Part shown: piece by piece, positions 4,070-43,868 of the stretch | How positions within the stretch are numbered: the stretch's first letter is position 1 | Layout: every line of letters begins with the position of its first letter | Translations under genes and position numbers: made by a program | NCBI GenBank assembly: GCA_903888765.1 | Contig: CAISVF010000016.1 | Span: forward strand, 1-44,602 | Length of the DNA stretch: 44,602 nucleotides | Origin: an uncultured Verrucomicrobia subdivision 3 bacterium | Lineage (GTDB): Bacteria; Verrucomicrobiota; Verrucomicrobiia; Limisphaerales; UBA11358 | Direction of reading: 5' to 3' | The notes under the pieces: model-generated | Seen by the model: only the letters and a program-made list of their open reading frames with translations | What the model was told of the DNA's origin: nothing | Database searches by the model: none

Positions 4070-4126
4070 AATCAAGCTGGCTTCAGGTGGTCCACGAAGA
4101 TAAGACGATACAACTTTGCGACGAAT

Positions 4127-11363: not shown

Positions 11364-11573
11364 TTTTGTTGACGCCGCTTCTCGCCGGATAATAACAGGC
11401 TTTTGTATTCGCAATATCAATTGAGCACCCGATGTGCATGATTAAGGTCTGGTCCAGATTATTCCGAATGGCGGCGCCAACCTAAGACACCGCCACCCGC
11501 ACCGAACCGCAACTCATGACCGGTCTTTGTGACGGCAACCAAAACCATCACGAAACTGGCAAACTATTTACAT

Positions 11574-13008: not shown

Positions 13009-13016
13009 AATGTGAT

Positions 13017-15969: not shown

Positions 15970-15977
15970 CACCACAG

Positions 15978-17423: not shown

Positions 17424-17469
17424 ATTTTTCGTTGGCAAAAATCAAAACGCGGGTGCCGGTAAGAAATTT

Positions 17470-18900: not shown

Positions 18901-18925
18901 GGCGCAATTTCCAGCGGTTTTAAAA

Positions 18926-23571: not shown

Positions 23572-23627
23572 GCGCCGGATACTACTCGCGCCGGCGCAAC
23601 TGGCAAGCAGTGATTGGCGAGATGGCC

Positions 23628-23660
23628 AACGCAAAATGACATAAACTTTGACGCAAAATG
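23628..23660 (+). promoter_or_regulatory. Candidate operator: two direct repeats ACGCAAAATG, 22-bp period
   Basis: AACGCAAAATG (23628-23638) and GACGCAAAATG (23650-23660) share 10 identical bases and start 22 bp apart, about two helical turns. This is the arrangement bound by AraC/XylR dimers. It lies in the 225-bp divergent gap, 56 bp from the regulator start and 136 bp from the amidohydrolase start, so it could serve both autoregulation and activation of the plus-strand genes. The same element recurs at 11787-11822. I could not define -35/-10 boxes next to it. Confidence 0.65.
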
Positions 23661-23796
23661 CTAGTCGCCGCATTGCGCCCGCTGGCAGATAATTGGGCAC
23701 CTTGAGACTAATAAGAAAACCAGTAGCCTGTGACTTGGCACCGCAAGCGGGAGAGACGCAGGTCGGCTGTTTAAGGCACTTCGGCCGCGTGAGGTT

Positions 23797-24651
23797 ATGA
23801 AACTAGATGCGCATCAGCACTTCTGGCAATACAATCCAGCGCATCAGGATTGGATGACCGATCAAATGCAGGTGTTGAAACGCGACTATCTGCCTGGTGA
23901 ACTCAAGCCGTTGCTCCAAGCCATCGGGTTTCAGGGAAGCATTGCGGTGCAGGCGCGACAAATGCTGGAGGAAACCGAGTGGCTGCTGCAGTTGGCGGAC
24001 CGGCACGACTTTATTCACGGCGTGGTGGGCTGGGTGGACTTGCGCGCAACTGCGCTCAGCGACCAATTGGAAAAATTGACCAGACATCCGAAGCTGGTGG
24101 GCATGCGCCATGTGCTGCACGATGAGCCGGACGATAACTTCATGCTGCGGCCGGAATTCCGGCGAGGCATAGGACTGCTTGGTGAATTCAAGCTGACATA
24201 CGATTTGCTCTTGTTTCCGAAGCATTTGCCGGCCGCGGTGAAATTGGTTGCGGAATTTCCCAATCAACCGTTCGTGCTGGACCACATCGCCAAGCCAGCG
24301 ATTCGTGAAGGGCAGTTGTCGCCGTGGCAGGAAAACCTGCGGCAGCTGGCTGCGTTTCCCAACGTCTGCTGCAAACTTTCCGGGCTGGTAACCGAAGCAA
24401 AATGGCAGGCATGGAATCCGGCAGATTTTCGCCGCTATCTGGATATCGTGATTCAGGTATTCGGCCCGGAGCGCGTGATGATCGGTTCCGACTGGCCGGT
24501 GTGCACCTTATCCGGCGACTATGTTTCCACTATGATGATTGTGCTTGAGTATGTGCGGCAGTTCACAGTAGAAAACCATGAAAGCATTCTCGGCGGCACT
24601 TGCGCCAAATTTTACGGATTAAACAGGTTAACCCCCCATCGACAAGTATGA
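23797..24651 (+). CDS. Amidohydrolase_2 (COG3618) sugar lactonase, L-fuconolactonase-like
   Basis: 284 residues with no signal peptide, hence cytoplasmic. Metal-dependent TIM-barrel motifs: LDAHQHFW with the HxH pair (His6, His8), VLDHIAKP, and the late GSDWPVC with the catalytic Asp. This subfamily opens L-fucono-1,5-lactone, L-rhamnono-lactone and related lactones. The next genes encode a zinc dehydrogenase, a sugar symporter and a fucose-type aldo/keto reductase. This order fits the non-phosphorylating pathway L-fucose to L-fuconolactone to L-fuconate, in which this enzyme is the second step. It is the first gene of the plus-strand group, downstream of the operator, with GAGG just before the ATG. 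The stop overlaps the next start in ATGA. Rhamnono- or galactono-lactonase is the main alternative. Confidence 0.88.
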   Translation: MKLDAHQHFWQYNPAHQDWMTDQMQVLKRDYLPGELKPLLQAIGFQGSIAVQARQMLEETEWLLQLADRHDFIHGVVGWVDLRATALSDQLEKLTRHPKLVGMRHVLHDEPDDNFMLRPEFRRGIGLLGEFKLTYDLLLFPKHLPAAVKLVAEFPNQPFVLDHIAKPAIREGQLSPWQENLRQLAAFPNVCCKLSGLVTEAKWQAWNPADFRRYLDIVIQVFGPERVMIGSDWPVCTLSGDYVSTMMIVLEYVRQFTVENHESILGGTCAKFYGLNRLTPHRQV

Positions 24652-25712
24652 ACGAAATGATGCTGGCAGGCATCCTTCATGGCGCTAAAGATATGCACGT
24701 GGAAAAATGCGCTGTTCCGGCGCTACGTGCCGGCATGGTGCGCCTGCGTGTTCGGCGCGTCGGTGTTTGTGGCTCAGACATGCACTACTTCGAACACGGT
24801 TACTGTGCCGCGTTTGTGCCAACCAGGCCATTTATTTTAGGTCATGAGTTGACCGCCGATGTGGAGGCAGTGGCTGCAGACGTGCAGACGATCCCGGTTG
24901 GCGCGCGGGTGACGGTCAATCCGGCTCGTGCCTGCGGTTTTTGCGACTATTGCAAGGCCGGCCGCGGCAATTTGTGCCGCCAGACCATCATGCTCGGCAG
25001 CGCCAGCACAGTGCCGCCGACAGATGGCGCTTTCGCGGAATTTGTCACCGTGCGGGCGGACCAGTGTCATATTTTGCCACCCCAGATGGAAGATGGACTT
25101 GGCGCGATGATGGAACCCTTCGCCGTGGCGCTGCACGCGGTAAAACGCGCCGGTTTGGTTTCAGGCAGGAAGGTGCTGGTAACCGGGGGCGGCCCCATTG
25201 GTTTGTTGGTGCTCATCACCGCGCGGGCATTGGGAGCAACGCCATTGGCTTTGAGCGACACGGTCGCAGGCCGACGGCAAACTGCGTTGAAGCTAGGTGC
25301 GGACTTGGCTTGGGATCCCGCCACGAAAAACCTTGCCGAGCAGTCGCGCGAGTTGACCGGTGACGGATTCGATATCGTCTTTGAGGCTTCCGGGGCGCCT
25401 CCCGCGTTGCGGCAGGCTTTTAACCTGATTCGGCCAGGCGGAACGATCGTTCAGATTGGGACTCTCGGCACGGAGGATGTACCCCTGCCGGCCAATCAAG
25501 TCATGGCGCGCGAGATCCAGTTCATTGGCTCTTTCCGCTACGGAAACGTCTTTGATGAAGCCATTCGCCTCGTGTCGTCGGGGCGTGTTAATCTGGAACC
25601 GTTGATCAGCCAGGTGTTCCCGTTGGAAGAAGTTCGGCAAGCAATGCAGCGCGCCTTCGCGAAGGACGAGGTCATCAAGGTACAAATCGAAATCAACGGT
25701 AGGAGCCAATAA
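24648..25712 (+). CDS. Zinc-dependent medium-chain dehydrogenase (sorbitol/L-idonate dehydrogenase-like)
   Basis: 354 residues from the ATG at 24648, which overlaps the lactonase stop by ATGA. Catalytic zinc ligands are seen at GVCGSDMHY (Cys41) and LGHE (His66, Glu67). The structural zinc lobe is CGFCDYCKAGRGNLC with four cysteines. The NAD(P)-binding Rossmann motif VTGGGPIGLLVL follows. Members oxidise a secondary hydroxyl of polyols or sugar acids. In this context it may act on L-fuconate or 2-keto-3-deoxy-L-fuconate, the later oxidation step of the pathway, but that role is inferred. It is cytoplasmic. Confidence 0.9.
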   Translation: MNEMMLAGILHGAKDMHVEKCAVPALRAGMVRLRVRRVGVCGSDMHYFEHGYCAAFVPTRPFILGHELTADVEAVAADVQTIPVGARVTVNPARACGFCDYCKAGRGNLCRQTIMLGSASTVPPTDGAFAEFVTVRADQCHILPPQMEDGLGAMMEPFAVALHAVKRAGLVSGRKVLVTGGGPIGLLVLITARALGATPLALSDTVAGRRQTALKLGADLAWDPATKNLAEQSRELTGDGFDIVFEASGAPPALRQAFNLIRPGGTIVQIGTLGTEDVPLPANQVMAREIQFIGSFRYGNVFDEAIRLVSSGRVNLEPLISQVFPLEEVRQAMQRAFAKDEVIKVQIEINGRSQ

Positions 25713-25718
25713 ATTAGC

Positions 25719-27416
25719 ATGAACATTTCACCGGTTGATGTGGCGATAATAGCCAGCTATCTGATTGGCATCACGGCGTTCGGCATCTGGATTGGTTACC
25801 GGCGCGACGCTTCCGCGCAACAATATTTTTTGGCGAACAAGTCCCTTGGTTGGTTTACCGTGGGCGCGGCGGTTTTTACTTCAAACATCTCAACAATTCA
25901 TCTTGTGGGTCTGGCTGCCGGGGGAGCAAAGGATGGAATGGTGATTGGTAATTTCGAGTGGATGGCGTGTTTCACCCTGATGACATTGGCTTTGATTTTC
26001 GCGCCTTTCTACCTCAATTCCAAAGTATCAACCCTACCGGAGTTCATGGAGCGACGCTACTGTCCACAGGCACGCACGTTTCTTGCCGTGATTGGCCTGC
26101 TGGGAGCCCTGCTGATTCACATTGGCATCAGCCTGTTCGCCGCCGCGAAAGTTTTTGAAAGTTTTCTCGGTGTTCCGATGGTGGAAACCATCATGGTACT
26201 CTCGCTATTCACTGTGATATATACTGCGCTGGGTGGTTTGAAAGCAGTAGTGATGACGGAGAGCATTCAAGTGTGGTTACTACTGGGGGGAGCAACTTTG
26301 GTGACGGTACTCGGGATCAAGGCGCTGGCCGGTGTTGGGGTGCATGACCTGGCCGGCTTCAAGGCCGCCGTGGCTCCGGGGCAGTTGCACATGTTGCAAC
26401 CAATCAGGAATGAGCAAGGGCATTTGAACGGATTTTCCTGGCTGAGTGTCTTGCTGGGGTACCCCATTCTTGGTATCTGGTATTGGTGTGCGGATCAAAC
26501 GCATGTGCAGCGCGTGCTGGGTGCCAGGAGTCTTAAAGATGGACAGAATGGTGCGCTATTCGCCGGTTTTCTTAAGATAACCCCGGTGTTTTTGATGGTA
26601 CTGCCGGGGGTGATTGGATATGTGTTATGGCAGAAGGGCGCTTTTCATTTGCTGAACGTGGCTGGAACCGGGCAACCGGATTACAACACCATGCTGCCTT
26701 CGCTGATCAATTATCTGGTTCCCGTTGGACTGAAAGGCTTGATCGCCGCGAGTATGGCCGCGGCCTTGATGAGTTGCATGGCCGCCGCCTTGAATAGCTG
26801 CGCCACGCTGATTTCCCTGGACATAGTCAAGCGCCTGCGCCCCAACACCAATGACAAACGCACCGTGGCCATTGGCCGAATTGCCACTGGGGTGATCATG
26901 GTGCTCGCGATGCTCTGGTCGACGCAAGGCGATCAATTCGGAACAATTTTTGAAGCGATCAACAAAATCCCCATGACCTTCGCGCCAGCAGTGACGACCG
27001 TTTTCGTCCTGGGCGTCCTGTGGAAGCGCGGCACCCAACAGGCCGCGATGACGACCCTTTACCTTGGCTCCATAATCGGCATCTTATATTTTATCGTGGA
27101 CTTGCCGAGCGTCGGCAAGCTGATGCTGGGGGCGGGGAAAGCACACGATGGTTTTACCGGTTTGGTTACCGACCCAGCCCAAGGATTGGGCGTTCCTTTC
27201 ATGCTGGTGGGGCCAATGATCGCGGCATTCTGCGTGGGCATTTATGTGATCACCAGCGTACTCACGCCCGCGATGAACGCGGAGGAAGTCGCGAAAGTGT
27301 GCTGGGACCATCCGCTCGGCTTTTTGCGGGGGCCGGTGGCGGGAGCGAGCGATCCACGGGTGATAGCAACCATCTTATTAGCGTTGGTAGGGGTGCTGTA
27401 TTTCGGTTTGCGATGA
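25719..27416 (+). CDS. Sodium:solute symporter (SSS/SLC5 family), probable deoxysugar uptake
   Basis: 565 residues with about 14 hydrophobic membrane segments and no cleaved signal. SLC5 hallmarks: an N-terminal YLIGITAFGIWIGYRR followed by QQYFLANKSLGWF, the conserved FTSNISTIHLVGLAAGGAKDG in helix 2, VYTALGGLKAVV-like text in IYTALGGLKAVVMTESIQ, and WYWCADQTHVQRVLGARSLKDGQ, which is close to the vSGLT-type sugar transporters. It should import a monosaccharide with Na+ at the inner membrane. Placed 6 bp after the dehydrogenase and 32 bp before the aldo/keto reductase, it is very likely the L-fucose (or related sugar) importer. Confidence 0.93.
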   Translation: MNISPVDVAIIASYLIGITAFGIWIGYRRDASAQQYFLANKSLGWFTVGAAVFTSNISTIHLVGLAAGGAKDGMVIGNFEWMACFTLMTLALIFAPFYLNSKVSTLPEFMERRYCPQARTFLAVIGLLGALLIHIGISLFAAAKVFESFLGVPMVETIMVLSLFTVIYTALGGLKAVVMTESIQVWLLLGGATLVTVLGIKALAGVGVHDLAGFKAAVAPGQLHMLQPIRNEQGHLNGFSWLSVLLGYPILGIWYWCADQTHVQRVLGARSLKDGQNGALFAGFLKITPVFLMVLPGVIGYVLWQKGAFHLLNVAGTGQPDYNTMLPSLINYLVPVGLKGLIAASMAAALMSCMAAALNSCATLISLDIVKRLRPNTNDKRTVAIGRIATGVIMVLAMLWSTQGDQFGTIFEAINKIPMTFAPAVTTVFVLGVLWKRGTQQAAMTTLYLGSIIGILYFIVDLPSVGKLMLGAGKAHDGFTGLVTDPAQGLGVPFMLVGPMIAAFCVGIYVITSVLTPAMNAEEVAKVCWDHPLGFLRGPVAGASDPRVIATILLALVGVLYFGLR

Positions 27417-27448
27417 ATTCCAACGCTTTCTGAACTGCTTATCATTAT

Positions 27449-28519
27449 ATGAAACAAAATCTGCTGGGCAAGACGGGCCTGCGTGTTTCGTCGTTGAGTT
27501 TTGGCGCTTCATCGCTGGGTGGAGTTTTTGCTCAAATCAATGAGACGGAGGGAATTCGCGCCGTGCATGTCGCGCTCGATCTCGGCATTAATTACTTCGA
27601 CGTTTCACCTGCCTACGGTGCCACGCGTGCCGAAACTGTTTTGGGGCGGGCTCTCAAGGGCATTGCGCGCGATCGTTACTATCTTTCCACTAAAGTTGGC
27701 AAATATACCCAGGCCGGTAGCTATGGAATTGACACATTGGACTATTCGCGGGCCCGTATCCGGGCGTCGCTCGATGAAAGCGCAACCCGTCTGGGCACTG
27801 ATTATTTCGATCTCATCCATATCCATGACATCGAGTATCAAGGCCGCAGGCATACCGAGTGGGCGTTGAGCGAAGGATTGTCCGCTTTGCATGAGCTGAA
27901 GCGCGAAGGACGCATTGGTGCCGTGAGCGCGGGCATTTATCCAATGGATTTGTGGCACCGCATACTCAATGATTACGAAGTGGATGCAGCCTTGGTCCAC
28001 AACCATTATTGTCTGAATGATAACCGCCTGCTCGAACTTTTGCCGCTGGCCCGCCAAAAGAACATCGGCATTATCAATGGCTCCCCCTTTGGCAGCGGTC
28101 TGCTCACCGAACATGGTCCGGCGGACTGGCATCCGGCCACAGCGGCAGAGCGCAAGGTTTTTCGAGACGCGGAATCCTTTTGTCAGGAGCAAGGCGTACC
28201 CATCAGCAAGCTGGCGCTGCAATTTGCCAGTCAACATGCGGGCCTGCCCACAACTCTGTTCAGTTCCGCAAGTCCAGAATCGGTCCGCCGCAACGTGCAA
28301 TGGCACGAGGAACCCCTCAACCTCGCCTTGCTGGATGCCGTGCAGCGTGTCTTGGCACCGGTAATGAACAAGCAATGGGATTATGACCTGACCATAGACA
28401 AGCCAACCCCTAGGGCAAATGCACCCGGTCTAATGAGTCCGGTCGAGCATCAGAGCCATGAACACGGTGCGCTCGCGCCGCTCGGTCAAGAACGCGCCAC
28501 TTTAAGCGGCCCATCTTGA
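27449..28519 (+). CDS. Aldo/keto reductase, L-fucose/L-galactose dehydrogenase-like
   Basis: 356 residues, no signal peptide. AKR tetrad: Asp and Tyr in NYFDVSPAYGATRAE, Lys in YYLSTKVGKY, His in LIHIHDIEY. The N-terminus LGKTGLRVSSLSFGASSLGG and the overall pattern are those of bacterial L-fucose (D-threo-aldose)/L-galactose dehydrogenases, which oxidise C1 of the free sugar to the lactone with NAD(P)+. That product is the substrate of the amidohydrolase four genes upstream. The last 30 or so residues (after NKQWDYDLTIDKP) have low protein character and extend past the usual end of the family, so the 3' end may have been altered, close to the broken sulfatase downstream. Confidence 0.87.
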   Translation: MKQNLLGKTGLRVSSLSFGASSLGGVFAQINETEGIRAVHVALDLGINYFDVSPAYGATRAETVLGRALKGIARDRYYLSTKVGKYTQAGSYGIDTLDYSRARIRASLDESATRLGTDYFDLIHIHDIEYQGRRHTEWALSEGLSALHELKREGRIGAVSAGIYPMDLWHRILNDYEVDAALVHNHYCLNDNRLLELLPLARQKNIGIINGSPFGSGLLTEHGPADWHPATAAERKVFRDAESFCQEQGVPISKLALQFASQHAGLPTTLFSSASPESVRRNVQWHEEPLNLALLDAVQRVLAPVMNKQWDYDLTIDKPTPRANAPGLMSPVEHQSHEHGALAPLGQERATLSGPS

Positions 28520-28536
28520 CAGCTTATATTGATACC

Positions 28537-28983
28537 ATGCAGCCAGTTATAATCAAAATCCTGGTGAAGCGCACGGCGATTTGCCTCGCCCCCGTGGGAG
28601 GGTTTTCCGGGACCGCCAAAGCAGAAAATTTATCCAATATCCTTTTCGTACTGGCGGATGACTTTGGCATCGACAGTCTGAGGTGTTATGGCGCGGATGA
28701 CTTCAACACGCCGCATATAGAGGCATTGGCATGCGGCGGCACCCAAGATCAGATAACGATCGCTGAGCGCGGGCATCTGCGTGGTGTTCTCCATCATCAG
28801 TTCAACCTGGCCGTGGACATCATAAACCAGGGTGGTGGTTCGGGTAAGCCAGCCAGCCGGGAAGACAAAAATGCCGCCATGGAAGCAGCCAATCATAAAT
28901 TGAAAGGCGGACATAGTTCGAAAGCCTGGGATAGTGAAACTGTGAATAGACAGAATATTAATGGAGACCCGATTAAATTTTGA
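28537..28983 (+). pseudogene. Truncated sulfatase, N-terminal fragment only
   Basis: From an ATG at 28537 a signal-like segment is followed by NILFVLADDFGIDSLRCYG and FNTPHIEALACGGT, an unmistakable S1 sulfatase start. The CXPSR formylglycine motif, which should follow within about 20 residues, is absent. After about 28741 the sequence no longer reads as sulfatase in any frame and the reading frame runs on to a stop at 28983. The later part does not match anything I recognise. On the minus strand it is also open for about 90 codons. The intact sulfatase that follows at 29026 is a different, iduronate-sulfatase-like type, so this is not its 5' end. Best read as a deletion remnant. Confidence 0.7.
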
Positions 28984-29025
28984 ATTAATTTCTATGTCAA
29001 ACAGGAACAGCTACCCAATTCAAAA

Positions 29026-30666
29026 ATGAACATAAAACCATCCCTTAACCTCCTGGCGGTCTATTTGCTTGGCGCTGGTGCATTCACGATGACCGCCGCC
29101 GGAACTTTGCCCGGGAAGCCAAACGTCCTTTTCCTGGTGGTGGACGATCTGCGGCCGGAACTTGGCTGCTATGGTAAAGACTACATCAAGAGTCCCAACA
29201 TTGACACCATCGCCAAATCCGGGATGGTATTCAACCGCGCCTATTGCCAACAGGCAGTATGTTCGCCGTCTCGCACCTGCGTGATGACCGGTGTGCGCCC
29301 CGACACCTCGAAGGTGTGGGACTTGGTGACCCATTTCCGCGATGCCTTACCGGCAGTGGTGACTTTGGGGCAACAGTTCAAAACCAATGGTTATTTTGTC
29401 CAAGGCATGGGCAAGATTTATCATCCCGGTCTTGATGATCCGGCCACCTGGTCAGTGCCTTGGCAGGAACCAAAGGCTCCAATTTATGCGTTGGACGAAG
29501 ACGCTGATTTGGTGGGCAAGAACATGCAACCAAAGGATGAAGATGGATCAGATGATAAAGGAACGCTCACGAGTTCCTATTTATTGCCGAAGCCCAACAC
29601 GGCCAACGCCAGCGAGGTTGCTACCAATGCTAAAAATCCGGCAGTCAGTAAGCCAAAGAGAAAGAAAGCCAACGCCAGCGGGATGTCCAATCCTCGTGGC
29701 CCGATCTATGAATGCGCCGACGTTCCGGACAGCACTTTTGTAGATGGCAAGACCGCCGACCTGGCGGTAAGCATCCTGGAAAAAATCAGTAAAAACCCCC
29801 AGCCTTTTTTCCTGGCCATCGGGTTTCACAAACCACATCTGCCATGGGTCGCACCAAAAAAATACTGGGATATGTATGATCCGGCAAAAATTGAATTGGC
29901 ACCCAACCAGTTTGTTCCTGTTGACGCCCCGGACTATGCTGTTCAGCCGAATGACGGCGAGGTTCGCGCCTACAAGGGGGTCCCGCCCAGCGGTCCCATT
30001 CCGCTGGAAATTCAACATAAGCTCAAACAGGCCTACTTCGCCGGTGTGAGTTACACGGATGCGCTAATTGGCAAGGTGCTTGCGGAACTTGACCATCTAA
30101 ATTTGCGCAGTAACACCATTATTATACTATGGGGCGACCATGGGTGGAAACTGGGGGAACACATGGCCTGGGGTAAACATAGTAATGTAGAGAATGATGT
30201 TAACGCGCCGTTGATGGTTTCGGTACCGGGCATGCACAACGCCGGTACCCATTCCGACGCACTAGTGGAGTTTGTGGACATCTACCCCACGTTGTGCGAA
30301 CTCGTCGCCATCCCCCTGCCGGGGCACCTTGAAGGCACCAGCTTTAAGCCAGTGCTGGATGACCCGCAACGGGCCTGGAAAACGGCCGCTTTCAGTCAGT
30401 ATCCGCGCAATGCCGGCAAGACCGGGGCAGGTGCGCTGATGGGGTACACAATGCGCACAGACCGTTACCGATTTACCGTTTGGGTGGGCAGAAAAGACCA
30501 CGTGAAAATTGACGCAATGGAACTTTATGATCATGAAATTGATCCACAGGAAAACTATAACATGGCCAAGAAACCGGAGAATGCCGAATTGGTTGCAAAG
30601 TTGCTGGCCCAATGGAAAAAAGGCTGGCAAGGGGCGAAGTCGATGGTTGCAGCCAATACAAAATGA
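29026..30666 (+). CDS. Secreted iduronate-2-sulfatase-like sulfatase (S1 family)
   Basis: 546 residues. Signal peptide to about residue 26, then PNVLFLVVDDLRPELGCYG, the signature of iduronate-2-sulfatase-type enzymes, and VCSPSR with Cys79 as the formylglycine site. Later motifs: GFHKPHLPW, LWGDHGWKLGEH with metal ligands, and YELYDHEIDPQENYN-type text (MELYDHEIDPQENYN). An unusual Lys/Ala/Asn-rich stretch at about residues 190-225 (KPKRKKANASG) looks like an inserted loop. It removes 2-O-type sulfates in known members. Here the substrate is probably sulfated fucose or galactose, which is inference. It lies 42 bp after the broken sulfatase and 57 bp before the GH78-like gene. Confidence 0.92.
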   Translation: MNIKPSLNLLAVYLLGAGAFTMTAAGTLPGKPNVLFLVVDDLRPELGCYGKDYIKSPNIDTIAKSGMVFNRAYCQQAVCSPSRTCVMTGVRPDTSKVWDLVTHFRDALPAVVTLGQQFKTNGYFVQGMGKIYHPGLDDPATWSVPWQEPKAPIYALDEDADLVGKNMQPKDEDGSDDKGTLTSSYLLPKPNTANASEVATNAKNPAVSKPKRKKANASGMSNPRGPIYECADVPDSTFVDGKTADLAVSILEKISKNPQPFFLAIGFHKPHLPWVAPKKYWDMYDPAKIELAPNQFVPVDAPDYAVQPNDGEVRAYKGVPPSGPIPLEIQHKLKQAYFAGVSYTDALIGKVLAELDHLNLRSNTIIILWGDHGWKLGEHMAWGKHSNVENDVNAPLMVSVPGMHNAGTHSDALVEFVDIYPTLCELVAIPLPGHLEGTSFKPVLDDPQRAWKTAAFSQYPRNAGKTGAGALMGYTMRTDRYRFTVWVGRKDHVKIDAMELYDHEIDPQENYNMAKKPENAELVAKLLAQWKKGWQGAKSMVAANTK

Positions 30667-30723
30667 GGAAAGCATCCATCCACCAGCCAGATTCATTTAT
30701 TCGTGGCTTGTAAAATACCTGAC

Positions 30724-32889
30724 ATGGCCTTAAAGACAATCATTGCGGGTCTTGCTGCTTGCCTGTTGTTTGCCAGTTCGGGTATGGCAGCAATAAAGGA
30801 TTATGGGCTAAAAGATTATGTTTATGTCTCTCGGGAATTACCCCATGCTCAAAACCAGCCTTGGAAGCTGGTTTGCACGATGCCTTACAACTGTCATTTT
30901 CAGCCTTGGATTAAATTGGTGGCTCCGGCCGGTAAAAAAATCAGTTTTGACTCCAGCAATCCGCTCGTGGTCTATCTTACGCCGACGGAAATTCATACCA
31001 CCACCGCAGGTGAGCAAATTCAGGAGGCGACAAATTGGGTAAGTGGCGAAGGAGCTATTTACACAATTCCTGCGGACGTTACGGTGGAAGCGGTCAGGTA
31101 TCGCGAAACCGGCTACGACACCTCATTTGCTGGTCAGTTTGAATGCAATGATGGCGACTATAATATCCTCTGGAAAAAAGCCGCCCGCACCGCTTATCTA
31201 TGCATGAGAGATCATTTCTACGACTGTCCGGACCGTGAACGCGTCGGTTTTTGGGGCGATGGCACTCCCGAGTTGGATCAGTGTTTTTATCTCTTCGATT
31301 CCGCCTCGCACGAACTGGCCAAGCAATTGGTATTACGGAAACTGGAGCCTAAGTTTTACCCGGGGCAGCACCTGGAATTTTTAGGCGATTATGGCTTATG
31401 GTTTTATTATCTCCAGACAGGCGATCTGGAATCCATTCGCGCGGTTTATGAGCAAACCAAAATATTTTTATTTGATACCTATCAATTTGGCAATAAACGC
31501 ACCTGGTTTGATTGGGGAAAAGAGGTCAAAGACACCGCAGTCATTGAGACGTGCTTTTATTACAACTGCCTGTGCGTTTTAAGAAAAATGGCACTCGCCA
31601 CCAGACGTGATTCCGATATTCCCGCTATTGAAGAGAAACTCGCGGGCATTAAAGAAAAATTTGACAGACAATACTGGAAAAACGGTTTTTACATGTCCTC
31701 CCAAGTAAATACTCCTGACGATCGAGCAAACGCCATGGCAGTCAACGTGGGCCTGGCTGACCAAAATAAATGGCAAGCAATTTATGAAAATGTGTTGACC
31801 AAGAAAATCTATGCCAGTTGTTTTTTCGACCGCTGGGTTTTTGAGGCGCTATGCAAAATGGGTAAACAAGAATATGCGATGCTTCGCATGTATAACCGCT
31901 ACAAAACCATGATTCCTTGCAGTTTCACCACTCTGTGGGAGCACTATGACCGCTGGTGGGCTTCGCATATTGACGCGTTTGATGAAGCTTCCTCGCTCAA
32001 TCACGGCTGGAATCCTCCGGCATTGCTGCTTTCGCAAACCATCGCCGGCATTGCTCCGGAATCAGCAGGGTGGGCGACATATCATGTGCTGCCCAAGGAG
32101 GCTTTCCTGACCACAATCAATGTGACGGTTCCAACTATCAAGGGCAACGTGAAGGTTGATTTGAGGAAAAGCGCATCGGAATATTCGTTAAATCTCACTT
32201 CGCCGGAAAACACTACCGCCGTTGTTGGTATTCCCAAAAGCTCCTTCAGAAAAATAAATTTCATCAAAGTGAGCGACGCCGTGATCTGGAATGGAACTTA
32301 TTCAGGTGGTGTTCCGGGGATAACTTTTAAAGGTGAAGACGAAAGTTACGTAAAATTTAATGTTGCTCCCGGCAGTTGGAAGTTTTCCGGCGTCGGAATT
32401 CTGTGCATGAATTTGCCGAAATTACCCCTGCAGTCAGTCGGGAACGAGCAACCGCTTGACAAGAAGGCCTGGACCGCCACAGCGTCCGTACCGGACGGGA
32501 CTTTTTTGTTTAGCGGCGACAAGATCCTGGTTGATGTTTCGGCGGCCAATGCCATTGATGGCGACCATTGGACCGGCTGGCGCGACATGTCAAACACGCA
32601 ATTCACCGGCCAGTGGTTTCAGGTGGATATGAAACAGCCGCAGGTTTTTGACAAAGTCGTTTTAGATAATACCTGGGCGCTCTGGGATTCTCCGGCCAAG
32701 TATGCCATTTCTGTGTCTGACGATGGAACCAACTGGGGATACCCGGTGGCCACGGGCCCGGGACAACCAGGCATTAACGATATCAGCTTTCCCCGGCAAA
32801 AAGCACGCTATCTCCGGATTACACAAACTGGCGTCAACCCGCTTTATCACTGGTCCATCTATGAGTTGGATATTTATCGGCACAATTAA
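30724..32889 (+). CDS. Secreted GH78-like alpha-L-rhamnosidase with C-terminal F5/8 type C domain
   Basis: 721 residues from the ATG at 30724, which begins the signal peptide MALKTIIAGLAAC; an in-frame TTG at 30703 is less likely. The (alpha/alpha)6 catalytic region carries the GH78 motif FYDCPDRERVGFWGDG (about 157-175). Further on are GDYGLWFYYLQTGD, WFDWGKE and TTLWEHYDRWWAS...SLNHGW. The C-terminal beta region (about 470-560) is followed by an F5/8 type C (discoidin-like) carbohydrate-binding domain (about 575-721, AANAIDGDHWTGWRD...YLRITQTG...YELDIYR). GH78 enzymes release alpha-L-rhamnose or close relatives. The N-terminal beta domains of typical GH78 enzymes are short here. The substrate inside a fucose locus is uncertain. 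Confidence 0.8.
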   Translation: MALKTIIAGLAACLLFASSGMAAIKDYGLKDYVYVSRELPHAQNQPWKLVCTMPYNCHFQPWIKLVAPAGKKISFDSSNPLVVYLTPTEIHTTTAGEQIQEATNWVSGEGAIYTIPADVTVEAVRYRETGYDTSFAGQFECNDGDYNILWKKAARTAYLCMRDHFYDCPDRERVGFWGDGTPELDQCFYLFDSASHELAKQLVLRKLEPKFYPGQHLEFLGDYGLWFYYLQTGDLESIRAVYEQTKIFLFDTYQFGNKRTWFDWGKEVKDTAVIETCFYYNCLCVLRKMALATRRDSDIPAIEEKLAGIKEKFDRQYWKNGFYMSSQVNTPDDRANAMAVNVGLADQNKWQAIYENVLTKKIYASCFFDRWVFEALCKMGKQEYAMLRMYNRYKTMIPCSFTTLWEHYDRWWASHIDAFDEASSLNHGWNPPALLLSQTIAGIAPESAGWATYHVLPKEAFLTTINVTVPTIKGNVKVDLRKSASEYSLNLTSPENTTAVVGIPKSSFRKINFIKVSDAVIWNGTYSGGVPGITFKGEDESYVKFNVAPGSWKFSGVGILCMNLPKLPLQSVGNEQPLDKKAWTATASVPDGTFLFSGDKILVDVSAANAIDGDHWTGWRDMSNTQFTGQWFQVDMKQPQVFDKVVLDNTWALWDSPAKYAISVSDDGTNWGYPVATGPGQPGINDISFPRQKARYLRITQTGVNPLYHWSIYELDIYRHN

Positions 32890-36268: not shown

Positions 36269-39200
36269 ATGCATCGCGTTTTAAGGCCATTTTCGGTCAT
36301 TTTTATGGTCGTCGGATTGATTTCGGAGATTACCCTGCCAACTCGTGCCGCCGGCTCGTTGGATAAGGCTAAGCCGGTTTCGCATACGCTTCGCCAAATG
36401 GAAGGCTGGACGCTGCAAGTGGATGACCGGCTGTTGTCGCCGCCGAATGGCGAGTTGGGCGGGCGCGCGTTACGTTTTCTAGAAAGCAAACTTGCGGATA
36501 TCAGGGCAGTGGTTGGCGGTGAACCCCTCGCGAAGCTGCAGTCCGTTAATATCGTGCTGGATTTGAGCCGCGGCGACCTGCGCAACCTGCAGTATCATCC
36601 CGATGCAGGCTGGCTGGCGGAAAACGGCTACTCGACCAATCTGGTGAAATGTGTCCACATTCCCCGGGCGGATGAATTGCCCACGCCGCGCAACATCAAT
36701 GAGCAACCCTGGGTGGTGCTGCACGAACTGGCCCATGCCTATCACGACCAGGTGCTTGGGTTTGACGACCCGCGCATTTTGCTGGCCTATGAGCGATACA
36801 AGAAAAGCGGACATGGCGATGCCGCTTTGCTTTTCGACAGCACTCGCGTGAGGCATTACGCACTGACCGATCACAAGGAGTTCTTTGCGGAAATGACCGA
36901 AGCCTACTTTGGAGAAAATGATTTTTTCCCCTTTAATCGCGCTGAATTGATGACCAGTGAGCCGCAGATTTACGAATTGTTGCAGGCCATCTGGGGGCCG
37001 GTTGGTGGGAGTCAGGCCAGGTCCACCAAGGAAGCAGGTCAGGCCAAAGTCAAGTCAATCAAGCCGGAAGAGGCATCGACAGTTCTGTGGTATGACAAAC
37101 CGGGGACTGCGTGGCGCGCAGCTTTGCCAATAGGCAACGGAAGATTGGGGGCGATGATCTTTGGGAATACGGAGGTCGAGCGTATTCCCTTGAACGAACA
37201 GTCCATCTGGACCGGCGGACCATATGATCCGACAATTCCGGGTGGCCCCCAAGCGCTGCCCGAGATTCGGCGGCTCGTGTTTGCGGGCAAGTTTTACGAG
37301 GCCGAAACTTTATTTGCCAAAAAGATGATGGGCAAGCCCGACCAGATGAAGTATCAGCCGCTGGGCAACCTGTTCCTCGAATTCCCCGGCCACACCAACG
37401 TCAGCAATTATCTCCGGCGTCTTGATCTGGAGACCGCCGTAGCCAGTGTTTCCTATCAGCTGGGCGACACCATCTATCGCCGTGATGCCTTTGCCAACGA
37501 AGATAATCAGGTTATTGTGTTCCGGCTCACGGCGAACAAGCCGGGGGCAATTACTATTCGCGCAAAATTTGCGGGTATCTTGAACACCAACCCGCCGGGC
37601 GACGAGAGCTTTGCCGCCGAAGTGACCACAGACGGTCAAATGGTGCTGCGCGGAACTACGGCAACTTATTGTGATATAAAGGGCCGGGTGAAATATGTGG
37701 GCCGAGTAAAGGTTTTGAATGAAGGTGGCAAGTTGACGACCACCCGGGATGGCGTGTCGGTGGACGGTGCCGATTCCATAATGTTGTTGTTTGTCGCTGC
37801 CACCAACTTCAAACATTATGACGATATCAGTGGCGATCCTGAAAAGCTGGCCAGGGAATACATGGGCAGCGTTAGCGAGCGAACCTACGACCGGCTGCTC
37901 GACAGGCATTTGGAGAATTACCAAAAAATATTTCGGCGCGTTAGTTTGACCCTGCCTGCTACGGATGCGTCACTGCGGCCAACGGATCAGCGTTTGCGAA
38001 CCTACGATCCTAAAAAAGATCCGCAGCTTATGGCGTTGATGTTTCAATATGGACGTTATTTATTGCTGGGCAGCAGCCGCCCTGGTGGGCAACCGGCAAA
38101 TCTTCAGGGCATCTGGAATGAAGACATGAATCCGGCGTGGGATAGCAAGTTCACTGCGAACATTAATTTGCAAATGAACTATTGGCCGGCGGAGACGGCC
38201 GCTTTGCCTGAGTGCGTGGATCCGCTGGTGCAAATGGTCCGGGAACTATCCGAAACCGGTGCGACTGTGGCAAAGGTTCATTATGGTGCGCGTGGCTGGG
38301 TTTTTCATCAAAACACCGATCAATGGCGAGCCGCCGCACCGATGGACGGCCCCACTTGGGGCACCTTCTCCGTAGGCGGGGCGTGGCTGTGCACTCACCT
38401 GTGGGAGCACTACCTGTTCACCGGCGACAAGGAGTATCTTCGCGAGATTTATCCTTTGCTCAAGGGGGCGGCGCAATTCTTTCTCGACACCCTGGTCGAG
38501 TATCCGGATAAAAAATGGCTGGTAACCTGTCCCTCGACCTCGCCGGAAAATTTTCCGGCCTGGTTTGGCAACCACACCTTTCACGACGACTATACGGGCA
38601 TTAATTTGCCGGGCACCACCATTACTGCCGGTTCCACCATTGACATGGGAATTCTCCGCGATTTATTCGCCGCATGCATTGAGGCCGGGAAGGTATTGCA
38701 TGAAGATAAAAAATTCTGTCAGCAGGTCGCGGCTGCCCGGGCCCGACTCGCACCGCTTCAGATAGGCAGGCAGGGCAACTTGCAGGAATGGATTGAAGAT
38801 TATACCGGTATTATAGAACCGCAGCATCGCCATCTTTCACACCTATACAACTTATATCCCAGTGCGCAAATTTCGCCCGCTGCCACACCCGAACTGGCCG
38901 CTGCGGCGAAAGTCGTGCTGAACGAGCGCGGCGATGCCGGCACTGGCTTTGGCATGGCTTGGAAAGCCGCCTGCTGGGCGCGGCTTCAGGACGGCGACCG
39001 CGCAAGCGCCTGCCTGGCCAATTTGGTCGCCCGGCAGACGTGCCCGAACTTATTTTCCATTTGTTTCTCCTCTCCGCAACTGGAAGGCGCTTGCGGCGCG
39101 ACTGCTGCCATTGCGGAAATGCTGGTGCAGAGTCAGGCAGGTGAAATCCAACTGCTGCCCGCTTTGCCGAAAGCCTGGCCGGAAGGAAAAGTCACCGGTC

Positions 39201-39367
39201 TGCGCACGCGCGGAGGTTTCGCTGTGGACCTCAAATGGAAGGAGGAGAAATTGGTTGAATGCGTGATTCATTCACTGAATGGAAATCCTTGCCGCCTCCG
39301 TTACGGAAACCATACCTGCGATGTCAAAATTGCAAATGGCGGGAATTTTAAATGGAACGGCCTCTGA
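36269..39367 (+). CDS. GH95 alpha-L-fucosidase with N-terminal HELAH metallopeptidase-like domain
   Basis: 1032 residues in one uninterrupted frame. After a signal peptide (to about residue 28) comes a domain of about 230 residues with VVLHELAHAYHDQVLGF (His152, Glu153, His156) and HKEFFAEMTEAYFG (Glu208 a likely third zinc ligand), the layout of a gluzincin-type metallopeptidase. A short Lys/Ala/Glu linker (about 250-268) leads to GH95 starting STVLWYDKPGTAWRAALPIGNGRLGAM (about residue 271). GH95 motifs: NLQGIWNEDMNPAWDSKFTANINLQMNYW (conserved Asn pair, about 631-637), CPSTSPENFP (catalytic Glu about 759), HRHLSHLYNLYPS, and a variant GFGMAWKAACWARLQDGD. GH95 cleaves alpha-1,2-linked L-fucose or L-galactose by inversion. 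The fusion suggests that fucose removal and peptide binding or cleavage act on one substrate. Confidence 0.88.
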   Translation: MHRVLRPFSVIFMVVGLISEITLPTRAAGSLDKAKPVSHTLRQMEGWTLQVDDRLLSPPNGELGGRALRFLESKLADIRAVVGGEPLAKLQSVNIVLDLSRGDLRNLQYHPDAGWLAENGYSTNLVKCVHIPRADELPTPRNINEQPWVVLHELAHAYHDQVLGFDDPRILLAYERYKKSGHGDAALLFDSTRVRHYALTDHKEFFAEMTEAYFGENDFFPFNRAELMTSEPQIYELLQAIWGPVGGSQARSTKEAGQAKVKSIKPEEASTVLWYDKPGTAWRAALPIGNGRLGAMIFGNTEVERIPLNEQSIWTGGPYDPTIPGGPQALPEIRRLVFAGKFYEAETLFAKKMMGKPDQMKYQPLGNLFLEFPGHTNVSNYLRRLDLETAVASVSYQLGDTIYRRDAFANEDNQVIVFRLTANKPGAITIRAKFAGILNTNPPGDESFAAEVTTDGQMVLRGTTATYCDIKGRVKYVGRVKVLNEGGKLTTTRDGVSVDGADSIMLLFVAATNFKHYDDISGDPEKLAREYMGSVSERTYDRLLDRHLENYQKIFRRVSLTLPATDASLRPTDQRLRTYDPKKDPQLMALMFQYGRYLLLGSSRPGGQPANLQGIWNEDMNPAWDSKFTANINLQMNYWPAETAALPECVDPLVQMVRELSETGATVAKVHYGARGWVFHQNTDQWRAAAPMDGPTWGTFSVGGAWLCTHLWEHYLFTGDKEYLREIYPLLKGAAQFFLDTLVEYPDKKWLVTCPSTSPENFPAWFGNHTFHDDYTGINLPGTTITAGSTIDMGILRDLFAACIEAGKVLHEDKKFCQQVAAARARLAPLQIGRQGNLQEWIEDYTGIIEPQHRHLSHLYNLYPSAQISPAATPELAAAAKVVLNERGDAGTGFGMAWKAACWARLQDGDRASACLANLVARQTCPNLFSICFSSPQLEGACGATAAIAEMLVQSQAGEIQLLPALPKAWPEGKVTGLRTRGGFAVDLKWKEEKLVECVIHSLNGNPCRLRYGNHTCDVKIANGGNFKWNGL

Positions 39368-39417
39368 CCTGATTGGCGGCCGACACTAAATCTGGCATCC
39401 GAGTCGCAATTGAAATC

Positions 39418-41688
39418 ATGTACCATGCCGTGCGCAAATCGCTCTTGTTAGGTTCATACCTGCTGTTATCAGGTCTTGAACTGTTGGCTGCCGAAAAGCA
39501 GCCGGTGAACCAGGCATTGCTGACAGTAGATCGAATTTTTGGGAAAAAAGGGGAATTTAAATCGGAGGAATGGGGGCCGGGCTGCTGGTTAAAAGACGGC
39601 TCCGGTTATACGACTCTCGAACCGTCTAGGTTCGCCCAGGACGCCAAAGATATTGTTCGCTACGATGTGGTTTCGGGCCGGCGCGAGGTGTTGATATTCG
39701 CAACCAATCTTGTACTTAAAGGTGCTTCCACATCCCTGAAGATTAAAGACTATGCCTGGACTGATGACGGCTGTAAATTGCTGATCTTTACGGACACCAA
39801 ACGTGTCTGGCGCAAGGAGACACGCGGGGATTACTGGGTGTGGGATTTGAAGCGGCAGAATCTTAAAAAGCTGGGCGGCAACGCGGCGCCTTCGACCTTG
39901 ATGTTTGCCACGCTGTCCCCGGATAACCGCCAGATTGCTTATGTTTGTCAAAATAATATTTTCGTGCAATCGCTGGACACCTGGCGCATCACCCAGATAA
40001 CCAAAAGCGGGTCACCCACCATTATCAACGGCACCTCGGATTGGGTTTATGAGGAGGAATTCGATTTGCGGAACGGGTTGCGCTGGAGTCCTGATGGTAA
40101 ATACATTGCTTATTGGCAATTTGATACGTCCGGAGTCAGAGAATATAAGCTGATCAACTACACCGATGAGCTATACCCCAAAATTAAGTCCTTTGCTTAC
40201 CCGAAAGTCGGGGAAACCAACTCTGCTTGCCGGGTGGGTATTATCAAAGCCAGTGGTGGCAGCACGCATTGGTTCCAGCCGAGTGCCGACCCGAGAAACA
40301 ATTACATTCCGGCAATGGAATGGATGAAAGATTCCCGGCACATCGTTTTTCAGCAGCTTAATCGGCTGCAAAACACGAACAGGGTCATGTGCGGTGACAT
40401 AAAAACCGGCCGGTGCGAAACGCTTTTCACCGATCGCGATGAAGCCTGGGTAGATGTCAATGATGAGTGGCCTTGGTTAAATGACGGAGAGCATTTTTTA
40501 TGGCTTAGCGAGCGGGACGGCTGGAGGCACGCCTACTCAGTGAATTGCACCAATCGTGATATCAAATTGCTGACGCCGGGGGCCTTTGACGTGACCCGCA
40601 TCGCCGGCGTGGATGAGCGGCGCGGGTATGTTTATTTCATCGCCTCGCCCGACAATCCCACACAGCGCTATCTTTATTGCGCACCCTTGGATGGGCGTGG
40701 GAATTGCGAGCGGATTTCACCTGACTATCAGCCAGGCACGCATACTTATGACCTCTCGGAAGATGGCTGCTGGGCCTTCCATGCGTATTCAAGTTTCAGC
40801 CATCCGCCGGTAAGCGAACTCGTACAGTTGCCGGAACACAAAATCGTGCAACCAATCGCCGACAATGCAAAGCTGCGCCGTAAACTGGGCGAGTTACCAG
40901 CCTGTTCCACTGAATTTTTTCGCGTCAGCGTAACGAATGGAATTCAGCTTGACGGCTGGTGCATCAAGCCGCCGGACTTTAATCCAAGCAGTCATTATCC
41001 CCTCTTAATACAGGTTTATGGAGAACCGGCCAGTACCATTGTTAACGACCGCTGGGGTGGGGAAAGCTATCTCTGGCACATAATGTTGGCGCAACAAGGT
41101 TATGTTGTGATTGCCATGGATAATCGTGGCACGCCAACGCTGCGCGGTCGCGATTGGCGCAAAATTGTCTATCGCCAGATTGGCATTCTAGCTTCGGCTG
41201 ACCAGGCAGCCGCTACCCGGCAACTGCTGCAGGAACGCACTTATCTGGATGCCCGGCGCGTTGGCATCTGGGGGTGGAGCGGAGGTGGTTCCATGAGTCT
41301 TAACGCTATTTTCCGTTACCCGGATCTATATCGCATGGCTATGGCCATTGCTTTTGTCAGCAACCAATGTAAATACGATACGGTTTATCAGGAACGCTAC
41401 ATGGGCTTGCCTGCGGATAATGTAGCTGGCTACCGGGACGGTTCACCTCTCAACTTCGCGCACCAGTTGCAAGGCAAGCTTTTGCTCGTCTATGGCACCG
41501 GCGATGATAATTGCCATTATCAAAATTGTGAAATTCTGGTTAATGAACTTATTAAACAGAACAAGCAATACTCATTGATGGCTTATCCGAACCGGACTCA
41601 TGCCATTGAAGAAGGGGACAATACCAAGCGCCATCTATTTGAAACCCTGACAAGGTATTTGCAGGAAAATCTACCTCTGACTGAATAA
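39418..41688 (+). CDS. Dipeptidyl peptidase IV (S9B family)
   Basis: 756 residues from the ATG at 39418, which starts the signal peptide region; an in-frame TTG at 39373 is less likely. The beta-propeller half carries the S9B double-Glu motif SDWVYEEEF, which binds the substrate N-terminus. The alpha/beta-hydrolase half has the triad: GIWGWSGGGSMS with Ser621, YGTGDDNCHYQN with Asp at about 696, and YPNRTHAIEEG with His728, in nearly the same places as in classical DPP IV. It releases X-Pro or X-Ala dipeptides from peptides outside the cytoplasm. It sits 50 bp after the peptidase-like/fucosidase fusion and before serine dehydratase, which supports peptide use by this locus. Confidence 0.95.
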   Translation: MYHAVRKSLLLGSYLLLSGLELLAAEKQPVNQALLTVDRIFGKKGEFKSEEWGPGCWLKDGSGYTTLEPSRFAQDAKDIVRYDVVSGRREVLIFATNLVLKGASTSLKIKDYAWTDDGCKLLIFTDTKRVWRKETRGDYWVWDLKRQNLKKLGGNAAPSTLMFATLSPDNRQIAYVCQNNIFVQSLDTWRITQITKSGSPTIINGTSDWVYEEEFDLRNGLRWSPDGKYIAYWQFDTSGVREYKLINYTDELYPKIKSFAYPKVGETNSACRVGIIKASGGSTHWFQPSADPRNNYIPAMEWMKDSRHIVFQQLNRLQNTNRVMCGDIKTGRCETLFTDRDEAWVDVNDEWPWLNDGEHFLWLSERDGWRHAYSVNCTNRDIKLLTPGAFDVTRIAGVDERRGYVYFIASPDNPTQRYLYCAPLDGRGNCERISPDYQPGTHTYDLSEDGCWAFHAYSSFSHPPVSELVQLPEHKIVQPIADNAKLRRKLGELPACSTEFFRVSVTNGIQLDGWCIKPPDFNPSSHYPLLIQVYGEPASTIVNDRWGGESYLWHIMLAQQGYVVIAMDNRGTPTLRGRDWRKIVYRQIGILASADQAAATRQLLQERTYLDARRVGIWGWSGGGSMSLNAIFRYPDLYRMAMAIAFVSNQCKYDTVYQERYMGLPADNVAGYRDGSPLNFAHQLQGKLLLVYGTGDDNCHYQNCEILVNELIKQNKQYSLMAYPNRTHAIEEGDNTKRHLFETLTRYLQENLPLTE

Positions 41689-42272: not shown

Positions 42273-43868
42273 ATGATTGTCAGCATTTTCAACGATGTAA
42301 TTGGTCCCGTGATGCGCGGTCCGTCGAGTTCTCACTGTGCCGCCGCCCTGCGTATTGGAAAGCTGGCGCGTGACCTGATGGATGACGATTTTCAGGAAGT
42401 ATTGGTGGAATTCGACCGCAACGGCTCGCTGCCGACCACTCACGCTAGCCAAGGCTCGGACATGGGATTGTTCGGTGGCCTGCTCGGTTGGGATGCGGCG
42501 GATGAGCGCTTGCCGGGGGCACCGGAAGCACTGCGCAATGCGGGTGTCAATATCCGGATCGAGACTGTGGACGCCGGAGACCCCCACCCGAACACTTACC
42601 GGCTCACACTTTTCAGCGCGCGTGCTCAACACTCGATCATCGCCATCTCCACGGGCGGTGGGATGATGGAAGTCATTAACATTGATGGTTTCAAGGTCTC
42701 ACTATGCGGGGATTACCATGAGACTTTATTATACATCATCGGCAATGGTCAGGCGCTCGCCAAGGACCTGGCGGAACTCGTCACTGTGGATGAAGTCTGT
42801 TTGCTAGCTTATTGCGGCAAACAACTCGTGCAGGTAAAAGCCGCAGCATTTTTGAGCGATGAAATGATCGCTAAGCTTCGGCAGGTTTGTCCCATACTTG
42901 CCGTCAAGCGCCTTGCCCCTGTCTTACCCATCCGGTCGCGCAAAGATACTAAAGTGCCGTTCACTACCTGCGAGGAAATGATGGTTTACCATGCCGGTAA
43001 CAACGTTCCGCTATGGAAGATTGCCATGGAATACGAGCAAGCGCGTGGTGGCTTATCCGAAGGGGAAGTTATCGAGAAGATGTTGGGAATTGTTCGTATC
43101 TTGCGTCGCTCCATTCAGCACGGTATCGCCGGCACACAATATTCTGATCGTGTTCTGGGACATCAGAGCGGCAAATTCAATGACCTCCTGCAAGGTGGGC
43201 GACTGCTTAACGGCGGTGCGCTTAACCGCATTGTGCTTTACGTGTCGGCAATGATGGAGGTGAAAAGTTCCATGGGCGTTATCGTCGCGGCTCCCACGGC
43301 GGGAGCGTGTGCGGCTTTGCCCGGCGCCGTGATTGGAATGGCCGAAGAAATGAATTTGTCAGAGGAGGATATGGCGAAGGCCATGCTCGCAAGTGGAATC
43401 ATTGGTGCGATCATCGCCACCCGCTGGACGTTTGCAGCGGAGGTAGGTGGATGTCAGGCCGAGGGCGGTTCGGCAGCGGCGATGGCGGCGGCGGCGCTGG
43501 TAACTTTGGCCAATGGGACGTTTTCACAGGCGGTGGCGGCAGCCTCCATGGCTTTCCAAAGCATGCTGGGATTGATTTGCGATCCGGTGGCCAATCGCGT
43601 TGAAGTGCCCTGTTTGGGCAAGAACGTATTGGCAGCAAGCAACGCTTTTTCCTGTGCGAATATGGCGCTGGCGGATTTCGATCCGGTCATTCCCTTCGAC
43701 GAAGTCATTGAGGCGGCGCAGCGCGTGGCGGGGCAGATGCCTCGCGAGTTGCGGTGCACGGCGCTAGGCGGACTTTCCATCACCAAAACTTCGCTAGCAA
43801 TCGAAGCCAGGCTGGCGGAAAAGAAAGCCACCGCGTGTGATGCGCCTCGCTGTGGCTGCTCGCATTGA
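42273..43868 (+). CDS. sdaA: L-serine dehydratase, iron-sulfur dependent, single chain
   Basis: 531 residues with beta and alpha parts joined in one chain. The beta part has GPVMRGPSSSHCAAALRIG, THASQGSDMG and an ACT-like regulatory stretch. The alpha part has SSMGVIVAAPTAGACAALPG (Cys346), EVGGCQAEGGSAAAMAAAAL (Cys394), and GLICDPVANRVEVPC (Cys436, Cys447). Three of these cysteines probably hold the [4Fe-4S] cluster that dehydrates L-serine to pyruvate and ammonia in the cytoplasm. It ends CDAPRCGCSH, an extra Cys-rich tail. Close downstream of DPP IV and GNAT genes, it fits use of serine from degraded Ser/Thr-rich glycopeptides. A housekeeping role is equally possible. Confidence 0.92.
   Translation: MIVSIFNDVIGPVMRGPSSSHCAAALRIGKLARDLMDDDFQEVLVEFDRNGSLPTTHASQGSDMGLFGGLLGWDAADERLPGAPEALRNAGVNIRIETVDAGDPHPNTYRLTLFSARAQHSIIAISTGGGMMEVINIDGFKVSLCGDYHETLLYIIGNGQALAKDLAELVTVDEVCLLAYCGKQLVQVKAAAFLSDEMIAKLRQVCPILAVKRLAPVLPIRSRKDTKVPFTTCEEMMVYHAGNNVPLWKIAMEYEQARGGLSEGEVIEKMLGIVRILRRSIQHGIAGTQYSDRVLGHQSGKFNDLLQGGRLLNGGALNRIVLYVSAMMEVKSSMGVIVAAPTAGACAALPGAVIGMAEEMNLSEEDMAKAMLASGIIGAIIATRWTFAAEVGGCQAEGGSAAAMAAAALVTLANGTFSQAVAAASMAFQSMLGLICDPVANRVEVPCLGKNVLAASNAFSCANMALADFDPVIPFDEVIEAAQRVAGQMPRELRCTALGGLSITKTSLAIEARLAEKKATACDAPRCGCSH

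Follow-up and report, generated by a model that had tools for sequence, protein, structure and literature searches.

Genomic context of a zincin-GH95 fusion gene

The window, i.e., the whole stretch of 44,602 nucleotides analyzed here, derives from an uncultured Verrucomicrobia subdivision 3 bacterium (contig CAISVF010000016.1 of assembly GCA_903888765.1) and carries on its forward strand a gene that joins a metallopeptidase-like zincin domain to a glycoside hydrolase of family GH95. The genes and features considered below are the following:

1250-4075, minus strand: DUF6288 protein
6222-11420, minus strand: DUF6288 protein
12040-20461, minus strand: one SASA-type esterase gene and four sulfatase genes
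14914-15975, minus strand: frame without Pfam match (E 1e-5) among the esterase and sulfatase genes
22411-23700, minus strand: AraC-type regulator with a periplasmic-binding-like domain
23797-32889, plus strand: amidohydrolase, alcohol dehydrogenase, Na+ symporter, aldo/keto reductase, sulfatase (the window's fifth) and alpha-L-rhamnosidase-like enzyme
28516-28983, plus strand: frame without Pfam match (E 1e-5) within this run
36269-39367, plus strand: zincin-GH95 fusion gene (ATG start, 1032 amino acids, no internal stops)
36269-36349, plus strand: putative signal peptide, residues 1-27, read from the sequence by eye
36350-37000, plus strand: zincin (metallopeptidase-like) domain, about residues 28-244
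36722-36736, plus strand: HELAH motif, residues 152-156, with H152 and H156 as two zinc ligands and E153 as general base
36857-36880, plus strand: Y197 (oxyanion-type Tyr) to E204 (third zinc ligand), spaced by seven residues
37001-37081, plus strand: linker, about residues 245-271, of low confidence in the model and evolving fast
37085-37816, plus strand: GH95 N-terminal domain PF14498, residues 273-516 (229.8 bits)
37883-39124, plus strand: GH95 catalytic domain PF22124, residues 539-952 (529.7 bits)
39128-39334, plus strand: GH95 C-terminal domain PF21307, residues 954-1022 (83.1 bits)
39373-41688, plus strand: dipeptidyl peptidase IV (DPP4, S9B-type) gene directly downstream of the fusion (PF00930 320 bits, PF00326 150 bits)

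A previous reading made from the sequence only had described one continuous frame comprising the front domain and a full GH95 enzyme, and the open reading frame at 36269-39367 with all three GH95 Pfam domains is exactly that; its numbering of E153 is likewise correct because HELAH spans residues 152-156. Judging from the putative signal peptide, the fusion protein is apparently secreted. The neighboring DPP4 combines a DPPIV_N propeller with an S9 hydrolase domain as in S9B peptidases, contains the stretch DWVYEEE, a DPP4 signature, and more likely starts at an in-frame ATG at 39418.

The sugar cluster around these genes resembles Verrucomicrobiota fucose/rhamnose clusters in the sections of PMC8857213 considered here, which also place peptidases among the neighbors of fucosidases and describe high peptidase content as not characteristic of Verrucomicrobiota. 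Elsewhere in the window, the two DUF6288 proteins (941 and 1732 amino acids, both with HEAT repeats, the longer one also with PA14) flank an M13 peptidase gene. A serine dehydratase gene (42273-43868) lies three genes after the fusion; one is also found directly after a standalone zincin at another locus (L043, 8621-10075), and a second locus from the same bin (L053, 1983-3413) is similarly arranged.

The GH95 enzyme and its linker

The back half displays the architecture of CAZy family GH95, i.e., an N-terminal beta domain, an (alpha/alpha)6 catalytic domain and a C-terminal beta domain, each far above the Pfam cut-off. Its N631-x-N633 and E760 match the base and acid of AfcA (residues taken from the parts of PMC10154630 considered here) by motif rather than by structure, and all three residues are invariant in 49/49 aligned fusions including the window's own. 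The back half is predicted to be a GH95 alpha-L-fucosidase or alpha-L-galactosidase. With the GH95 part taken to start at protein residue 265, nine distinct PDB sequences match it at E <= 1e-5, eight of which align from its residue 2-16 and one from its residue 97. The front domain is therefore extra to solved GH95s, in line with the earlier statement that such enzymes begin near the WYDKP region: GH95s such as the alpha-L-fucosidases 7kmq, 4ufc and 2eab share the same three Pfam domains and align over nearly their full length but, unlike the window's protein, have no front domain.

In the full-length model (pLDDT 76.7, pTM 0.69), the linker is poorly defined with a mean pLDDT of 33 for residues 251-260, and its sequence identity in two comparisons is 40-46% versus 75-80% on either side. 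Across 84 proteins, it has a median length of 27 residues (range 20-50). Self-cleavage at a linker Pro-Pro is unsupported as a general rule since this dipeptide is present in 19 of the 84 linkers. Pro-Pro also occurs near the start of the zincin domain in 115/267 segments. A nearly invariant Lys-Pro (P0001 residues 35-36, window positions 36371-36376; alignment columns K8 and P9) shortly precedes the zincin core in a region modeled with low confidence.

The front domain as a predicted gluzincin-type peptidase

The HExxH motif and downstream Glu ligand of gluzincin-type zinc peptidases (clan MA) are present in the front domain and, together with the remaining predicted catalytic position, invariant: H152, E153, H156, Y197 and E204 are found in 240/240 aligned sequences, a count that is biased because the alignment comprises the window's own domain and its 239 closest listed relatives. 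The earlier statement that the zinc-binding His residues, the general base and the downstream Glu are intact is thereby borne out. The Pfam search placed only GH95 above the cut-offs, while the front domain had no NCBIfam match and remained below the Pfam gathering cut-offs for the lethal factor domain model (PF07737, ATLF; 20.3 bits versus 27.4) and for M90 (PF06167, MtfA; 21.9 bits versus 26.2). Some listed relatives are assigned to PF07737 and others to PF06167, and we place the window's domain by its sequence in a seemingly uncharacterized group beside M34 and M90.

A PDB sequence search found no relative of the front domain and a profile search returned a single chance match (E 4.7), so we turned to fold comparison. 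The predicted structure is a zincin fold, for which Pro-Pro endopeptidases (PPEPs) rank nearest, followed by lethal factor and then MtfA, though Foldseek alone gave nothing below E 0.001 and had PPEP-2 as its best hit (E 0.01). PPEPs are M34-like in MEROPS (Pfam PF07737). In structural alignments, PPEP-1, PPEP-2 and PPEP-3 are 14-22% identical to the window's domain, which differs from them in its fusion to a carbohydrate enzyme. It shares with PPEP-1 and PPEP-3 the seven-residue spacing from Tyr to Glu, but their tandem Glu that includes the zinc ligand (Glu184-185 in PPEP-1 and 196-197 in PPEP-3, as given in the parts of PMC12828418 considered here) is mostly Lys-Glu in window-type domains (position 203 among the 240 aligned: K 213, M 25, Q 1, R 1), and Pro-Pro specificity thus gains no support from this feature. 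The domain differs from MtfA (M90, PF06167, PDB 3dl1), a cytosolic protein, in having a putative signal peptide.

Sequence and model thus agree on a gluzincin-type peptidase whose predicted site is intact, and the front domain is very likely a working peptidase of this group. Three frames each contain a tandem pair of more distant relatives (about 29-33% identity; L130, i.e., G295:C35, at 1089-2630; G298:C315; G290:C281), and the HExxH motif is missing from the second domain of the L130 pair.

Recurrence and co-inheritance of the fusion

The window's genome is fragmented into 621 contigs, and an assembly or frame error could in principle have joined two separate genes. A search of 49 genomes of the genus found five with a front-domain match at E <= 1e-10, four of which (including the window's own) carry the domain in frames of 1033-1074 amino acids, while the fifth match is a distant copy (36% identity) in a frame of 241 amino acids. 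The fusion is hence present in three other genomes of the genus, with a front part that is 78-80% identical (G027 and G038 score equally), and the window's genome has a single front domain. For another genome with a GH95 of the fused subgroup (G035), fusion status cannot be told because its contig begins inside this gene. GH95 enzymes as such are common in the genus (44/49 genomes at E <= 1e-60), and the fused ones form a subgroup of their own that is 76-78% identical to the window's, compared to at most 54% for the others in longer matches (55 and 58% for two fragments). This recurrence, the same architecture in many relatives beyond the genus (see below) and the co-divergence of both parts contradict a joining error, which we regard as having practically no chance of being correct.

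The best 120 GH95 matches listed (own included) comprise 78 with the zincin domain, one among these with only a piece of it, and 42 without, though four of the latter begin inside GH95 so that their fusion status cannot be told. Across 78 fusions, the pairwise identities of the zincin and GH95 parts correlate (Mantel r 0.77; best of 999 permutations 0.11) with mean identities of 69% and 70%, respectively, and the two parts therefore travel together once fused. L007 and L008 correspond by their coordinates to the fusions of G011 and G027; compared with the window's gene, they give dN values of 0.13-0.17 and dS values of 1.25-2.27 for both parts, the latter near saturation.

We built a zincin tree of 170 sequences (the window, 119 listed long relatives and 50 random ones of 113 standalone domains), on which 20 architecture labels require 70 changes (minimum 19, shuffled mean 98.3) and the GH95 label 16 changes, of which three are forced by well-supported branches; 82/167 inner branches of this tree are weak. 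For GH95, the tree has 139 rows, made up of 79 fused and 42 unfused proteins and 18 of 20 genus paralogues (two were dropped for too few columns). This tree, which also holds proteins chosen for their zincin domain in the long-relative search, shows eight changes between fused and unfused, four of them forced. The label changes on the zincin tree mean that the fusion was gained or lost more than once and that labels are distributed non-randomly. At one locus (L023, 2320-2345), SASA-zincin and GH95 are separate genes with an ATGA overlap; this GH95 is 79% identical to the fused ones and seemingly has no signal peptide of its own. By their sequences, such split GH95s (L023, P0243) may act in another compartment.

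Distribution and partners of the zincin module

Using residues 28-264 as query, 326 long relatives (0.55-1.75 times 1032 amino acids, E <= 0.01) were found, and the best 120 including the window's own were listed. Among the 119 others, 58 carry GH95 (53 as zincin-GH95 and five with an additional SASA domain), so that the fusion is no isolated case. The remaining 61 listed proteins are SASA esterases, DUF6797/cytochrome proteins, sulfatases, DPP4, sialidase-like proteins, GH32 and single others, with labels from precomputed Pfam accessions. Fusion partners thus include haem-type enzymes as well as DPP4, and the zincin sits at either end or between domains. Among listed relatives, which as the closest matches are biased towards the query, zincins of about 60-83% identity are fused to many unrelated secreted enzymes. 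With the 264-residue front part as query, 5858 short proteins matched at E <= 0.01; 113 of the best 120 listed are standalone by our length rule. For 20 of 24 eligible standalone zincins, co-directional neighbors encode two sulfatases, a GH43, a GDSL lipase, an alpha/beta hydrolase, one carbohydrate kinase and one serine dehydratase, with the remaining thirteen unrelated or without Pfam match.

A contig search yielded 297 stretches encoding a relative, and the best 80 carry bin titles of Planctomycetota, Verrucomicrobia, Lentisphaerae, Kiritimatiellae, Armatimonadetes and others; most records of the module are from Planctomycetota and Verrucomicrobia. The zincin-GH95 architecture is real and shared by several phyla as titled. 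An even sample of the window's phylum has the zincin in 13/240 genomes (E <= 1e-10, own included) and no GH95 fusion besides the window's own, all other copies lying in frames of 219-355 amino acids; here, the module is scattered and its fusion to GH95 rare. No match to the front domain was found at E 1e-5 among 72,556 plasmid and 50,697 phage records.

Linkage to DPP4

A DPP4 of the window's type is absent from the other 48 genomes of the genus at E <= 1e-60 and present in at least 3/240 phylum genomes at 1e-100 (own included), a lower bound because only four candidates were scored in some genomes. Close relatives of this DPP4 are themselves fused to a zincin (P0011, P0019 and P0021; 1237-1281 bits), and DPP4-zincin fusions of reverse order occur as well (L126 and L127 from one genome, L128). 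At L010, the gene adjoining SASA-zincin-GH95 encodes a DPP4 that shares 81% identity with the DPP4 portion of one of the listed fusions. Other loci are arranged as GH95-DPP4-GH95 followed by an opposite-strand frame and a zincin (L131), or begin with a distantly GH95-like gene and DPP4, from which a tandem zincin is separated by two genes (L130/L141).

In 26 genomes chosen for their zincin and not for DPP4, we counted 36 DPP4 relatives, of which six are found no more than 5 kb from a zincin compared to about 0.12 expected (Poisson P 4e-9). This estimate ignores contig ends and relatedness, three of these cases are fusions, and two genomes contribute two cases each; the other 30 relatives lie beyond 5 kb of any zincin. 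GH95 behaves differently: the same genomes have 73 matches at E <= 1e-60, of which the 68 non-fusion ones are on zincin-free contigs (lists compared by eye), and none lies beside an unfused zincin at this threshold. A weaker GH95-like gene is found near an unfused zincin in G295.

Proposed function and alternative explanations

The front domain is best read as a shuffled and apparently secreted peptidase module, found time and again with DPP4 and with enzymes that strip glycans. We give an even chance to the view that the window's protein is a secreted zinc endopeptidase and a GH95 acting on one glycoprotein, with a mobile module and help from DPP4. The front domain would be a catalytic zinc endopeptidase with a fold like lethal factor, PPEPs or MtfA, tied to GH95 by a linker of about 27 residues, and would represent a mobile accessory with which PVC-group bacteria equip varied enzymes that act on extracellular glycoconjugates. 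Most likely, the peptidase would open the protein backbone of a fucosylated and probably sulfated glycoprotein, GH95 would take off terminal fucose and the neighboring DPP4 would trim X-Pro dipeptides from the newly made ends. From the partner enzymes and the PPEP-like fold, the substrate is perhaps a proline-rich fucosylated glycoprotein. The data show the architecture, the conservation of the catalytic residues, the predicted fold, the joint inheritance of both parts, the repeated fusion and the linkage to DPP4, whereas secretion, proteolytic activity, a shared substrate and any preference for proline-rich sequences are what we infer here. Because the partners are so diverse, a single substrate class may not suffice for all fusions. 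Also weighing against this view are the weak Foldseek match, the Lys-Glu in place of the PPEP Glu-Glu, the inactivity reported for the PPEP-like CD1597, the 68 GH95 matches on zincin-free contigs, the 30 DPP4 relatives beyond 5 kb of a zincin, the mixed neighbors of standalone zincins, the GH95s that lack the domain and the split GH95s. The sequence-only reading had proposed a glycopeptide-specific enzyme, and the linked esterases, sulfatases and DPP4 do fit an attack on protein-bound glycans; a device dedicated to fucosylated glycopeptides is not supported, given the wide range of secreted enzymes to which the domain is fused and the 5858 short versus 326 long matches, and this narrow reading should be widened to the shuffled module.

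The variety of unrelated secreted proteins that bear the domain, be it terminal or internal, and the abundance of short relatives would also suit a generic maturation or release module that cuts its own linker or an envelope protein irrespective of its partner's substrate, just as PPEP-1 releases cells by cutting adhesins. However, the fast-evolving linker has no conserved Pro-Pro cut site, most of the listed partners are, by simple tally, DPP4 or enzymes related to carbohydrates, and the parts remain fused over long divergence, which a release module does not require; we consider this explanation rather unlikely. Another view, in which the front domain has no catalytic role and instead binds or scaffolds, draws on the motif lost from one of the two tandem copies in L130 and on the PPEP-like CD1597, for which the parts of PMC11460543 considered here report no detectable proteolytic activity. 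It is quite improbable in light of five invariant catalytic positions that mere binding would not need, even if this count is biased towards closest relatives.

The resemblance to lethal factor and the recombining domain, together with the fact that polymorphic toxins include zincin domains, could hint at a weapon-like effector, i.e., a peptidase delivered against other microbes whose coats are opened by the attached enzymes. Yet the signal peptide looks ordinary, no delivery or immunity gene was seen among Pfam-annotated neighbors, the gene sits in a sugar-utilization cluster and the plasmid and phage records lack the domain, all of which leave this possibility very little room. Returning to the reading of peptidase and GH95 on one glycoprotein, its boldest form is a tentative and somewhat doubtful one: an unrecognized, horizontally spread family of secreted zinc endopeptidases might serve as a plug-in on fucosidases, esterases, sulfatases and DPP4 of PVC bacteria that dismantle proline-rich, fucosylated and sulfated glycoproteins, e.g., algal cell-wall or mucilage proteins.

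Precedents and biological meaning

In the listed titles and abstracts from openly accessible journals, we found no description of a GH95-peptidase fusion or of this module. The Limousia mucinolysome contains, in the parts of PMC12997984 considered here, a GH20 with a peptidase domain that likewise places glycosidase and peptidase in one secreted chain, but it differs in its glycosidase family, phylum and organization as a dockerin-cohesin complex. Verrucomicrobiota have been studied, e.g., in the sections of PMC8857213 considered here, for their use of sulfated algal polysaccharides rich in fucose. Should some of the enzymes involved indeed contain a conserved endopeptidase, these bacteria may in reality feed in part on glycoprotein. 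Beyond this, the partners provide a large group of peptidases with a substrate hypothesis that can be tested, and the module supplies candidate enzymes for cutting glycoproteins.
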